In this document: piece by piece, positions 7,544 through 40,836 of the stretch
Layout: every line of letters begins with the position of its first letter
Position numbering within the stretch: the stretch's first letter is position 1
Assembly (NCBI RefSeq): GCF_000373265.1
Contig: NZ_KB890762.1
Span: 243,705-307,704 of the forward strand
Length of the DNA: 64,000 bases
Source: Pontibacter roseus DSM 17521
Lineage (GTDB): Bacteria > Bacteroidota > Bacteroidia > Cytophagales > Hymenobacteraceae
Direction of reading: 5' to 3'
Program-made: the position numbers and the translations under genes
Notes under the pieces: generated by a model
The model's database searches: none
What the model was told of the DNA's origin: nothing
The model's input: the letters and a program-made list of their open reading frames with translations, nothing else

Positions 7544-8041
7544 ATGGATTTAGAAACTATAGTCATCGGGCTTTTCGCATTGGCGGTGTTTGTGCTGCCT
7601 ATCTTGTACATCCAACGAAAACAAAAGGCGAAAGCGGGGAAGGCGCTGGGTAATTTCCTGGCTTTAGGCGAGCAGCACCAACTCCGGCTTACCCAACACG
7701 AATCATGGAACGAGTTCTACGCCATCGGTCTGGACGAGGGACAGCGGAAGCTGTTCTACCTGAACCAGCAGGAGGCGCAGGTGCCACCCATTGTAGTTGA
7801 CCTGACAGAGGTGAAAAAATGCGAGGTGGCCAACGAGTACCGGGAGCTGAACGGCAACCGCATCATCGACTTGATAGGCCTGCGCCTCACGTTCCGCAAC
7901 CCAGCGCAGCGGGAGCAGATTCTGGAGTTCTACAGCAAAGAGGGCAACACGATGCTGAGCGTCGAGTTGCAACTGGCCCGCAAGTGGAGCGACCGCATCA
8001 ACGCAGCCATCGCCACCCTGGCTCGGGTTGCGGTGAAATAA
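7544..8041 (+). CDS. Single-pass membrane protein of unknown function
   Basis: The 165-residue protein has one N-terminal membrane helix (residues about 5-25, IVIGLFALAVFVLPILYI) followed by a basic stretch (QRKQKAKAGK) and a soluble cytoplasmic domain with alternating beta strands and helices. The soluble part contains GLDEGQRKLFYLN and VDLTEVKKCEV, which suggests a PH-like beta fold as in several Bacteroidota membrane proteins of this size, but this is a guess. The start at 7544 removes ten upstream residues and places the helix at the N terminus. It is monocistronic with a terminator at 8074-8107. Confidence 0.6.
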   Translation: MDLETIVIGLFALAVFVLPILYIQRKQKAKAGKALGNFLALGEQHQLRLTQHESWNEFYAIGLDEGQRKLFYLNQQEAQVPPIVVDLTEVKKCEVANEYRELNGNRIIDLIGLRLTFRNPAQREQILEFYSKEGNTMLSVELQLARKWSDRINAAIATLARVAVK

Positions 8042-8073
8042 ACCTGTACCTGGCGCCTGTGCAGGCGATAGCT

Positions 8074-8107
8074 AAAACGGCTTCGGGTTTTTATCCGAAG
8101 CCGTTTT
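8074..8107. terminator. Rho-independent terminator
   Basis: Arms AAAACGGCTTCGG and CCGAAGCCGTTTT pair perfectly around an 8-nt loop, with a T-run on the plus strand. It lies 33 bp after the stop at 8041. Confidence 0.88.
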
Positions 8108-8213
8108 TATTTACTTAGAATATGGGTTTTGCTATACCTAGGGCAGGCATACCTAAGGCTTTTGGGCTATGACAACAGCTTGCCATATGCGGGGTTATTC
8201 CGTACATTCAGGT

Positions 8214-8429
8214 ATGAATGGAGCAGCTATGCAGGCATCGTTACTTTTGCTAAAACGCGAATCGACCTTCTCTTTCCCAGATGATGCCCGGAAACTGGTG
8301 CCGCTGTACAAGCTCCGTCACCAAACGCGCCTGCAGCCGCAGACCCGGCCGGAAGGGCAGCGGGAGAGCAGCAGCCCTGTGTGCTACGCCCACCTGAAAG
8401 ACCTGCGGGAAGGCTTTGAGGGTTATTGA
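8214..8429 (+). CDS. Small conserved-looking protein of unknown function
   Basis: The frame encodes 71 residues from ATG 8214, or 66 from ATG 8229. The C-terminal motif SSPVCYAHLKDLREGF resembles a PVCYA-x-S/K-x-x-R ending that recurs in short Hymenobacteraceae proteins of unknown role, and this is the main reason for accepting it. There is no signal peptide, and the middle is polar (Gln/Arg-rich). The adjoining 375 bp (8430-8804) hold no gene: they contain short GTCATT repeats and one A-family palindromic element. Confidence 0.45.
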   Translation: MNGAAMQASLLLLKRESTFSFPDDARKLVPLYKLRHQTRLQPQTRPEGQRESSSPVCYAHLKDLREGFEGY

Positions 8430-8522
8430 AGTGTGTCAGCTTCTTTTATTGTCACTCCACTTTTTGTCATTCCGCTTCTATCTCTTGTCATTCCTCTCTT
8501 ACTGTCATTCCAACCCCTCCCT

Positions 8523-8694
8523 GTCATTTCGACGAAAGGAGAAATCTATTACCATGACCACCGCCGGTGCGAGCGGAGCGGGAACCGGCGGTGAGGCATG
8601 CGAGGGTTACTTAAGTCCTCAGAAAAGCCGCATCGGCGCTGGCGCTGGATGTACGGCTGGAAGGGTATAAGATTTCTCCTATCGTCGAAATGAC
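8523..8694 (-). repeat. A-family palindromic element, copy A1
   Basis: This 172-bp element has about 25-30-bp terminal inverted repeats (outermost GTCATTTCGACGAAAGGAG on the left and its near complement on the right) and two internal hairpins. One hairpin has the arms ACCGCCGGT/ACCGGCGGT and the other is centred on GGCGCTGGCGCTGGATG. It is in the opposite orientation to A2, and the pair brackets the GIY-YIG gene. Upstream, GTCATT is repeated several times within 70 bp (8467-8526), as if partial ends had accumulated. Confidence 0.9.
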
Positions 8695-8804
8695 AGGGGA
8701 AGCTTGTGGTATTGTGAGGGGAGAGGATTGATACAGTCGGGAACCGAAAGGACTAGGAGGATTGGCGGATGGCGGAAGTGGGCAGAACTTGAATCAGCTG
8801 CTTC

Positions 8805-9113
8805 CTATTCATGCTCTTTAACTTCCTCATTGAGGAAATTCCAAGTGGGGTTCATAGATTGGATAAGGGCTTCTTTCTTTTTCCGGCTCCACTTTTTGAG
8901 TTCCTTTTCACGGTCTATGGCTTGTTGCACATACGTGAAGCGCTCGTAGTACACTAGGTAGTGGCAGTGGTATTTACCGGCAAAGGTGTCCGGAATACCC
9001 GCGTTTGCGCCGTGCTCCTCCAGCCGCCGTTGCAGCGTGTTGGTCATGCCGATGTAAAGCACCTTTTTTGTCCTGTTGGTCGTGATGTACACAAAGTAAT
9101 TGTGGTTTGGCAT
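8805..9113 (-). CDS. GIY-YIG nuclease family protein, flanked by A-family repeats
   Basis: The 102-residue protein is a stand-alone GIY-YIG domain of the short UvrC-N/UPF0213-like type. Visible motifs are YFVYIT (residues 6-11, the GIY strand), LYIGMTN (19-25, the YIG strand), the catalytic Arg pair R29/R30, His34, and the metal-binding Glu E69 in AIDREKELKKW, followed by NPTWNFL. All residues expected for activity are present. The start at 9113 was chosen because the longer frame to 9191 runs into repeat A2. Inverted copies A1 and A2 of a 170-bp palindromic element lie 110 bp after the stop and 73 bp before the start, so the gene appears to be associated with that repeat family. Confidence 0.88.
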   Translation of the reverse strand: MPNHNYFVYITTNRTKKVLYIGMTNTLQRRLEEHGANAGIPDTFAGKYHCHYLVYYERFTYVQQAIDREKELKKWSRKKKEALIQSMNPTWNFLNEEVKEHE

Positions 9114-9186
9114 GCGGAGAGTAACGGGGCAGACACGGATTAGGTTTGCAGTGACCATTGATACCTTATAAGCCTCTTCTACTCCT

Positions 9187-9363
9187 GTCATTTCGACGAA
9201 AGGAGAAATCTGTTACTCTTCTGGCCGAACATCCAGCGCCAGCGCAGATGCGGCTTTTGTGGGAGCCTCTTCTGTAGCCTACCCGCATCCTTCACCGCCG
9301 GTTCCCGCTGCGCTCGCACCGGCGGTGGTCATGGTAACAGATTCCTCCTTTCGTCGGAATGAC
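9187..9363 (+). repeat. A-family palindromic element, copy A2
   Basis: This 177-bp copy has terminal inverted repeats (about 30 bp each) and two internal hairpins: an ACATCCAGCGCCAGCGCAGATG stretch flanked by GCCG/CGGC-type bases at 9227-9254, and ACCGCCGGT/ACCGGCGGT arms at 9294-9326. It stands 73 bp before the GIY-YIG start and 37 bp after the stop of the gene at 9401, and has the opposite orientation to A1. Confidence 0.9.
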
Positions 9364-9400
9364 AAAAAAGGTATTTGGAAAGACAGGGAAGTTGAACGGC

Positions 9401-9796
9401 TTAGTCCTGTTGAGCGGGGAGTGGGTGGCGGAAGAGCGTGAGGCCGAACCAGGCGGCCAGCCCATAATACACGACGCTCAGGCCCCAGAGGATGGCCGGC
9501 TGCTCCGGGTACTGGAACATGAACTTGAGCAGCGCCATACCGCCTATGAAAAAGTGGGCGAAGTTGGCGATGCAGATGGGCCGGTTGTATATTCCACCTA
9601 TCCGGCTGCCCTTGGACATCCAGTTGAGCATGGCCATGCCGGCGTACAAAGCGCCCACCACCTGCAGCACCAGCACAAAAAACGGGTCCGGGTTCGAGCC
9701 CAAAGCGGTCGCCAGCTCGGCGGGCAGAAACGTGAGGGCTATACCCAGCGCGGCCAGCACGACGGCGCTCAAAATCATCATGGTTTTCGTTTGCAT
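9401..9796 (-). CDS. Four-helix membrane protein of unknown function
   Basis: The 131-residue protein has four predicted membrane helices (about residues 7-27, 40-60, 75-93 and 102-122) and a short polar C terminus (HPLPAQQD). The size and layout resemble small DoxX-like or DUF4345-like proteins, but no diagnostic motif was found, so the family is left open. The gene lies between two A-family repeats (A2 37 bp beyond its stop, A3 158 bp upstream of its start). This may be chance, or the gene may have been carried as a passenger. Confidence 0.6.
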   Translation of the reverse strand: MQTKTMMILSAVVLAALGIALTFLPAELATALGSNPDPFFVLVLQVVGALYAGMAMLNWMSKGSRIGGIYNRPICIANFAHFFIGGMALLKFMFQYPEQPAILWGLSVVYYGLAAWFGLTLFRHPLPAQQD

Positions 9797-9953
9797 GCGG
9801 TTGAAGGATTAAATGAATGTATAGGCTATACCTGTTTAATGCGTATGGTGAATAAAAATAGCTGTTACTAGGGCAACTGTATTATTGATTCTTCTCTCAC
9901 CATCCCGATCGCCATTCCTACCGCTCCAATCACAGTCCCTGTTTACACTCCCT

Positions 9954-10129
9954 GTCATTTCGACGATAAGAGAAATCTGTTACCTTACTAGCCGCACATC
10001 CAGAGGCAGCGCCGATGCGGCTGGATGTGAGCCTCTTCTGCAACCTGCCTGCATCCTTCACCGCCGAATCCCGCTGCGCTCGAACCGGCGGTGGCTATGG
10101 TATGAGATTCCTCCTTTCGTCGGAATGAC
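9954..10129 (+). repeat. A-family palindromic element, copy A3
   Basis: This 176-bp copy is in the same orientation as A2, with terminal inverted repeats and both internal hairpins, and has diverged more than A2 (for example GACGATAAGAG in place of GACGAAAGGAG at the left end). It lies in a 609-bp gene-free stretch (9797-10405). The rest of that stretch holds two TATACCTG motifs and no convincing ORF. Confidence 0.85.
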
Positions 10130-10405
10130 ATTAGCGCGCTACGGGTGCGAGTTGGCTGCTCGTTCTCAATGTATGCGTGGCCGTAACAGAACACGGACTA
10201 TAGACCCGCGCCAGCGGGCATGAGTCCTGAACCTGCCATTTTATACCTGAAAACCGCTATGTGTCTGGCTGGCTATACCTGCTTTATAGGTCACTCCTTC
10301 AGTTGTATGTACTAATATACTGATTTGCCGCGGGCTATCACTATACGTCGGTATGGTAGCTGCCATTTAGAGTGGTATCTTAGCCTTGAAATCACTTTAC
10401 ACATA

Positions 10406-10672
10406 ATGAAGAAATTACTTTATGTAGCCATCGTTTTAAGCGCTACATCCTGCTCCTCAGACAACAACCTGCAAGACACCCTGTACAATATAGCGGAATC
10501 CGGTGCCAACATGGCCATCGACTCGCTGCACCATACCGCCAACAAAGAGCTGGAACGCTACACCGGAATCGACTCGCTGGCGAACAAGGTTCGGGCAATC
10601 GACACCATAAACGTGGAGCGTGAGATTGAGCGCGGCGTGAAGCGCAGGCTCATCGAAGAACTCTCCAGATAA
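10406..10672 (+). CDS. Small lipoprotein of unknown function
   Basis: The 88-residue protein starts with a lipoprotein signal peptide (KKLLYVAIVLSATSC, Cys18). The mature part is a single amphipathic helical stretch, rich in Asp, Glu and Arg, with a repeated IDSL motif (AIDSLHH, GIDSLANK) and an acidic/basic end (VEREIERGVKRRLIEELSR). The start was placed at 10406 so that the signal peptide is N-terminal. No operon partner is seen. The 336 bp after it hold the left B-family repeat and no other gene. Confidence 0.6.
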   Translation: MKKLLYVAIVLSATSCSSDNNLQDTLYNIAESGANMAIDSLHHTANKELERYTGIDSLANKVRAIDTINVEREIERGVKRRLIEELSR

Positions 10673-32563: not shown

Positions 32564-32612
32564 TGCTACGCTAGCTGTCATTCCTCCCTTAGCTGTTTTT
32601 TATACCTCATCT

Positions 32613-32785
32613 GTCATTTAGGCGATAGGAGAAATCTATTACCCTACTGGCCGCACATCCAGCGCCAGCGCAGATGCGGCTTTCTATGAGCCTCTTCTGT
32701 AACGGGCCCGCATCTTCCACCGCCGGTTCAAGCGCAGCGTGAACCGGCGGTAGGTATGGTAATAGATTTCTCCTATCTAAATGAC
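32613..32785 (+). repeat. A-family palindromic element, copy A4
   Basis: This 173-bp element has the family ends (GTCATTTAGGCGATAGGAG on the left) and both internal hairpins, including ACATCCAGCGCCAGCG and ACCGCCGGTTC/GAACCGGCGGT arms. It has no GIY-YIG gene next to it and lies between a DUF2892 gene and the Cu-efflux operon. Confidence 0.88.
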
Positions 32786-40492: not shown

Positions 40493-40570
40493 TTTTCGCT
40501 GCTAAAGCTTTGTGTCATTCCAACAAAAGGATGAGTTCTGCTGCACTGACTGCCATTCCACTTCCTTTTT

Positions 40571-40772
40571 GTCATTTCGGCGATAGGAGAAATCTTATTA
40601 TTATCTAGCCGCACATCCAGCCCCAGCGCAGATGCGGATTTTCTGGGGTCGGCTAGGAAGGAAACAGAGGAAAACGCAAGATGCGGATTGGCTCGCATGG
40701 CTCACCGCCGGCTCCCGCTGCGCTCGCACCGGCGGTAGTGTCATAACAGATTCCTCCTATCTTCGGAATGAC
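40571..40772 (+). repeat. A-family palindromic element, copy A5 (expanded form)
   Basis: This 202-bp copy has family ends (GTCATTTCGGCGATAGGAG on the left) and the ACCGCCGGCTC/ACCGGCGGT hairpin. About 30 bp are added between the two internal hairpins, where a second ATGCGGAT appears (40632 and 40681), so the element has been partly duplicated. It lies in the 344-bp gap between cusB and the convergent greA-like gene. No other gene or promoter is seen there. Confidence 0.82.
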
Positions 40773-40836
40773 AGGAATGGTGAGAAGGAGTAAAGGACTG
40801 AGGAGAAACGACAGTATACGGAAGTGACAATTTCAA

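Follow-up and report, generated by a model that had tools for sequence, protein, structure and literature searches.

Why is a small stand-alone GIY-YIG nuclease gene of Pontibacter roseus DSM 17521 bracketed by a palindromic element that recurs in the same genome and here stands in two opposite orientations? The gene and the repeats were studied in a window of 64,000 nucleotides, the whole stretch of DNA that was analysed, which is part of contig 2 of the 4.58 Mb genome. The original prediction had compared the arrangement to a RAYT gene with its REPs and proposed that a nuclease of unrelated fold cuts and spreads the palindromes. Our analysis partly supports this interpretation. The locus is probably a REPtron-like unit, in which a small Slx1-like GIY-YIG nuclease gene is framed by the CGTC-type REPs that it serves; cutting and spreading by the protein are steps that we infer.

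Table 1. Coordinates of the GIY-YIG gene and of the A elements in the window.
Feature	Position	Strand	Description
Stand-alone GIY-YIG nuclease gene	8805..9113	minus	102 codons and stop; PF01541, translation, alignment, AlphaFold2 model
Element A1	8522..8695	+	Outward TGTC-tagged CGTC-type REP units 8522-8546 (+) and 8671-8695 (-)
Element A2	9186..9364	-	Inverted relative to A1; REP units 9186-9210 (+) and 9340-9364 (-)
Element A3	9953..10130	-	Oriented like A2; far side without GIY-YIG gene
Element A4	32612..32785	-	Solo; right end degraded; left unit with 3 mismatches
Element A5	40570..40773	.	Solo; terminal units at both ends

The position of the gene between inverted A copies is borne out by the complementarity of the arms, which reaches 93% between 8522-8602 and 9284-9364 and 87% between 8620-8702 and 9179-9261. 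All five predicted copies are present, with positions that had been placed about 1 bp off. The copies framing the gene are 174-179 bp long, and the range across copies is about 175-205 bp. Each A element consists of two units of about 25 bp with their tags facing outward, following the pattern TGTC-AT-nnn...n'n'n'-AT-C. Allowing up to three mismatches, nine terminal units are observed in the window (8522+, 8671-, 9186+, 9340-, 9953+, 10106-, 32612+, 40570+ and 40749-), while none is found in 100 shuffles. Terminal inverted repeats had been described for A1 and A2; the degraded right end of A4 shows no terminal match at this threshold.

The element is dispersed throughout the genome. A genome-wide search gave 110 candidates, of which 40 were scored and all 40 are copies (A4 is row G000:C2:276317-276481 of this search), and the terminal pattern has 140 matches compared with none for the reversed pattern. 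All 31 adjacent unit pairs in the own-genome element loci, some of which overlap, face outward. As single-stranded DNA, A1 folds with -53 kcal/mol (z -9.3) through pairing between the units at its two ends; single end units of 25-28 nt fold no better than shuffles. Most A copies flank other genes, an observation that the original prediction would have counted against a link; the solo REPs of RAYT systems behave alike. An Rfam scan of positions 8001-10500 with E up to 1 returned no match.

These repeats share their grammar with a known superfamily. The accessible text of Di Nocera, De Gregorio, Rocco 2013 (PMC3733652) describes CGTC REPs with a CGTC, TGTC or CCTC tag and a stem starting with AT, mostly arranged as head-to-head dimers and dispersed between genes in five phyla including Bacteroidetes. 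Members named there are the Neisseria dRS3 (CGTC-1 REP), RPE-4 and RPE-6 of Rickettsia and many alphaproteobacterial families; the same text reports no association with a transposase gene and apparently no dedicated transposase. The window units carry the TGTC tag, and one of the three tags is found in 15 of 16 loci from a plasmid collection. The stem starts with AT, but the strict motif used in our searches requires AT by design, and some relaxed cases (Sphingobium, Novosphingobium) have a stem without it. Head-to-head orientation accounts for 79 of 168 neighbouring REP pairs at 80 loci from named organisms, the others being inward (46) or tandem (43). A stem of 8-9 bp, a loop of 4-5 and a CCA tail are recognized by eye in the Azospirillum and Neisseria copies, whereas the window units have a perfect stem of 5 bp and no CCA tail. 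From its sequence, we read the A element as a head-to-head dimer of CGTC-type REPs, with the reserve that stem length and tail differ.

The framed gene is intact and matches PF01541 with an E-value of 2.4e-14 and 53.8 bits (cut-off 22.6). Residues Y9, Y20, G22, R30, H34 and E69, which we take to be the catalytic set, show no variation across 13 aligned homologues, and with the domain above cut-off and these predicted catalytic residues retained the protein belongs to the GIY-YIG superfamily. An AlphaFold2 model, predicted with high confidence (pLDDT 90.6, pTM 0.83), was compared with solved structures. The closest is the UPF0213 protein BH0048 (1zg2; profile E 1.9e-10, Foldseek E 1.3e-3), followed by Slx1 as a weaker structural match (Foldseek E 0.04-0.3, probability 0.82-1.00). 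Matches in NCBIfam, PHROGs and PADLOC are all weak and unspecific, and phage homing endonuclease families match the domain weakly. No second stand-alone GIY-YIG gene was found in the P. roseus genome, where the other two PF01541 matches are parts of longer frames (612 and 473 aa).

GIY-YIG genes related to that of the window are associated with CGTC-type REPs across bacteria. A strict REP lies within 400 bp of 145 of 208 such genes (7 of 215 were dropped because of short flanks), and 95 have one on both sides. Among control ORFs of the same loci, which are mechanical and not annotated genes, the counts are 113/834 and 14/834, and an altered tag at the 208 genes gives 8 near and 1 on both sides. 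Within 400 bp, strict REPs are present at 26/30 same-family loci (18/30 on both sides), at 23/29 loci from a search by phylum (15/29) and at 62/80 named-organism loci (42/80). Around the last group, the density is 4.99/kb at 0-100 bp from the gene and 5.15/kb at 100-200 bp, compared with 0.09/kb at 4-7 kb and 0.07/kb at 7-10 kb. Altered-motif controls give 0.00-0.25/kb in the first 200 bp, and the near-gene signal disappears when the tail of the motif is altered (0.06/kb). CGTC REPs are near only 1/22 UvrC-type loci (0/22 on both sides) and 2/27 Y1_Tnp loci in 148 relatives (0/27); Fisher values for this comparison of locus classes overstate the evidence, since homologues are related by descent and not independent. 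The original prediction had asked whether relatives of the gene are always flanked by A copies. They are not: A repeats are absent beside other relatives, most of which carry different members of this repeat superfamily.

Strict cases at named loci come from nine phyla, namely Bacteroidota, Bacillota, Spirochaetota, Verrucomicrobiota, Chloroflexota, Pseudomonadota, Cloacimonadota, Calditrichota and Magasanikiibacteriota, and a cyanobacterium adds a tenth; phyla other than Bacteroidota and Bacillota are mostly represented by one or two loci each. A re-score of 78 of the 80 named loci gave 59 strict cases, 39 of them on both sides, and 62 that are strict or relaxed. The relaxed motif with a scrambled tag still matches 20/78, so that the relaxed motif is informative mainly for the 16 plasmid-collection loci. 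These were hand-picked from 35 records returned for an alphaproteobacterial query, some of which are chromosomes filed as plasmids, and the records include Sinorhizobium meliloti, Azospirillum lipoferum 4B, Novosphingobium aromaticivorans and Neisseria gonorrhoeae. A strict REP is near the gene in 9/16 and a strict or relaxed one in 15/16, compared with 1/16 for the scrambled tag. The Neisseria gene has 11 units of the CGTCATTCCC type, presumably dRS3, within 500 bp. The only one of the 16 loci without CGTC-type REPs is that of Sphingomonas parapaucimobilis (L320), where the nuclease gene and an RNA methyltransferase gene overlap and another type of palindrome is observed in the flanks. On plasmid p1 of Planktothrix agardhii (L309), the gene and its REPs have a type IIL restriction-modification gene on one side and the DISARM gene drmA on the other.

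The local architecture varies from locus to locus. We dropped the notion that the gene is framed by inverted repeats only: in an ungapped comparison with a score of at least 20, direct repeats were found in 40 of 76 scored loci and inverted repeats in 25, with a background of 11/2063 random intervals for the inverted kind. The recurring unit is the REP and not a long inverted element. Some genomes contain triplets of GIY-YIG genes, spread over about 7 kb (G202:C31:267291-274106) or about 1.1 kb (G215:C86:45030-46137). Elsewhere, the gene is located beside a REP array in which TCT and CCT cores alternate every ~59 bp (L137, ~10001-10270) or beside a tandem array with a 63-bp period (L132, downstream of 10252).

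The three-base core of the REPs co-varies with the nuclease. Mapped on the nuclease tree, the core requires 47 changes, compared with a shuffle mean of 92.9 (minimum 84, n=136), and after thinning at 80% identity 45 compared with 66.8 (minimum 59, n=95). The main core is common to 97% of 176 nuclease pairs that are 80-95% identical; gene pairs of the same genome below 70% identity have a core in common in 2 of 31 cases. In 11 genomes with several genes (32 genes), the nearest gene in another genome shares a core for 19/32, and permuting the REP sets within each genome gives 7.7 (p ~0.001). The agreement extends to dispersed repeats: for REPs more than 1.5 kb away, the core is also found beside the gene in 42/74 cases from 28 loci, compared with 12.5 when permuted between loci (maximum 30 in 2000). 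In one genome (G130), the dispersed cores GCT (14/25) and GCC (7/25) are those next to its GIY-YIG genes. These data show that the gene and its adjacent REPs descend together and that the cores agree with those of the dispersed REPs; recognition does not follow from them alone, and joint inheritance of the gene with its flanks could also produce the co-variation. A search of the nuclease alignment columns for a residue-level recognition code gave a best z of 3.5 and no clear code; the motif GFT[KR][KR]Y is present in 9/12 genes with core TGC and in 15/135 with other cores, and is not exclusive. The RAYT/REP-like layout that had been proposed is well supported and goes further than envisaged, with CGTC-type dimers, the same pairing in many phyla and co-variation of the core.

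The comparison of filled and empty sites suggested by the original prediction yielded both states. At the window site, nine of 46 matching genus genomes were examined; the flanking genes align on both sides in eight, with one rearranged. None of these nine relatives has a GIY-YIG gene, which makes the unit specific to its lineage at this site. In A. lipoferum 4B, sufB and sufC are separated by the gene, which has a head-to-head REP dimer on either side; at the suf site of A. ramasamyi, A. oryzae and strain B510 (95-96% identical), gene and dimers are both absent. On Sphingobium plasmids, the gap between fnrL and a regulator gene holds palindrome-gene-palindrome in TomMM7A and TomTYG46, a single palindrome in TomTYG64 and TomTYG74, and neither in TomTYG72. 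Judged by its sequence, the single palindrome resembles a fusion of the outer halves of both flanking palindromes, which would fit insertion into a palindrome and collapse of a cassette alike.

Between two genomes that are 99.1% identical (~367 kb compared), no gain or loss of REPs was found: 41 of 47 are intact at the same place, four are unmapped, one has a broken motif and one is a chance match within a gene. The one GIY site known to differ in this pair does not qualify as a clean empty site, as an unrelated palindrome occupies it in the partner genome. Other intergenic replacements are present in a pair of genomes that are 94% identical. Gaps with a GIY unit or other content at L321 (G132) and L303/L304 hold unrelated palindromes in another genome. 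It is as if some intergenic gaps were insertion hot spots.

Gene and repeats do not always coincide. No strict REP is found within 400 bp of 63/208 GIY-YIG genes, and the genome-level correlation is weak, with a median REP excess, by a crude pattern, of 14.4/Mb in 131 genomes with a match and 11.25 in 67 without (p 0.014). Some REP-rich genomes lack the gene, the most marked case being a genome of the same class (G151) with 369+422 hits to CGTC-type patterns and 17 for the control; its REPs (L397-L404) are mostly GTCATTGCGAGGAACGAAGCAATC next to GCT or CCT units. No stand-alone GIY-YIG gene was found in it, the GIY-YIG matches being in long frames only. The gene profile labelled A1 misses some genes: when 20 unmatched genomes chosen for high REP counts were re-examined with PF01541, two (G306, G166) had stand-alone frames of ~100 aa, two (G233, G330) had frames of 136-141 aa, and 16 had long frames only.

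How could the protein act on these repeats? Slx1-Slx4 processes branched DNA, going by the titles of the structure matches, and the closeness of the fold to UPF0213 and Slx1 makes a hairpin or cruciform REP a natural candidate substrate. A REP dimer, when single-stranded or extruded, would form such a structure. The nuclease would recognize its own REP type by the GTC tag and the core of the stem and nick there; by repair or strand exchange, the dimer alone or the entire REP-gene-REP unit would then be copied into another intergenic site, with no duplication of the target. Solo REPs would be non-autonomous copies that may outlast the gene. Our data show that gene and REPs are associated, how widely this holds, that the unit is present in a lineage-specific way and that nuclease and core co-vary; cleavage, specificity and mobilization are attributed to the protein by inference from these patterns. 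We are close to evenly divided, leaning slightly against, on the wider proposal that, across bacteria, mobilizing the CGTC REP superfamily is the dedicated task of the GIY-YIG protein. It would define a class of minimal mobile elements in which a single-domain, structure-specific nuclease of the Slx1-like kind, instead of a transposase, recognizes the stem core of its palindrome and spreads itself together with up to hundreds of non-autonomous copies.

Among other explanations, the gene could be a homing parasite of pre-existing REPs, cutting at or near them and being copied in as a cassette by repair, with the solo REPs not spread by it. The Sphingobium gap with a single palindrome in two strains, the solo REPs in genomes without the gene and the weak matches to phage homing endonucleases are all compatible with this idea. 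The single-palindrome state may equally be a collapsed cassette, however, and the shared core of gene-adjacent and nearby dispersed REPs, also in G130, fits spread by the nuclease, so that we regard homing as unlikely. Still less probable is a role in host repair, with the enzyme trimming or resolving REP cruciforms and staying close to its substrate, but moving neither itself nor the REPs. Slx1 and UPF0213 are the nearest fold relatives, and prokaryotic Slx1-like proteins are predicted to act in repair in the accessible text of PMC1564403. Nevertheless, the gene is patchily present, sites are filled or empty between close species, several genes with differing REP cores occur per genome, and nine genes have internal stops among the matches listed; together, these features look mobile rather than housekeeping.

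The terminal inverted repeats, the length of the elements and their high copy number would also suit MITEs that depend on an unrelated DDE transposase, the GIY-YIG gene being merely carried along. We consider this very improbable: target-site duplications are seen in 0/29 copies examined (6 with uncertain ends), the framed gene in relatives is repeatedly GIY-YIG, the one framed gene observed in the loci retrieved, and Y1 transposase genes are not framed. A chance encounter, or a common preference for intergenic gaps, is hardly credible. Some control ORFs (113/834) do have a strict REP nearby, and several unrelated repeats collect in some gaps, but framing on both sides is rare for these ORFs and absent for Y1 genes, and the co-variation of core and nuclease argues in the same direction. 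Given these controls, this explanation is disfavoured. The reading that we favour remains REPtron-like, with an Slx1-like GIY-YIG nuclease as the enzyme in place of the HUH transposase RAYT.

CGTC REPs are widespread and in 2013 had no assigned enzyme, as far as the accessible text of PMC3733652 goes; a specific candidate is now available, and the GIY-YIG enzyme of the window is a strong candidate for the missing partner. Nuclease sequence and REP core may fit each other as lock and key. If the reading is correct, many small GIY-YIG proteins named by their domain alone would gain a function, and palindromes would have a second, non-homologous route of spread in genomes. Our searches of open PMC papers found none that links GIY-YIG genes to REPs, as far as the accessible text goes.

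Free-standing GIY-YIG homing endonucleases resemble the present system in that the gene could promote its own spread by cutting; to our knowledge, they have neither framing palindromes nor dispersed solo copies. Prokaryotic Slx1-like and UPF0213 proteins (PDB 1zg2, 1ywl) are likewise single-domain GIY-YIG proteins and are the nearest solved ones by sequence and fold. Their cluster is described as lacking the C-terminal Asn and is given no link to repeats in the accessible text of PMC1564403; the window protein has a nearly invariant N88, which may or may not be the Asn meant there. The CGTC REP superfamily, in the accessible text of PMC3733652, appears without GIY-YIG; here, a GIY-YIG gene is framed by CGTC-type REPs. 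A further parallel is the REPtron, a RAYT gene with GTAG REPs in the same text (PMC3733652). In both, palindromes surround a single small gene of nuclease type that presumably serves them, several repeat-specific versions occur per genome, and solo REPs are numerous. They differ in the enzyme, GIY-YIG instead of an HUH tyrosine transposase, and in the tag, GTC-type instead of GTAG. As the gene framed by REPs is GIY-YIG and not an HUH/Y1 transposase gene, the whole unit is REPtron-like, not a REPtron.
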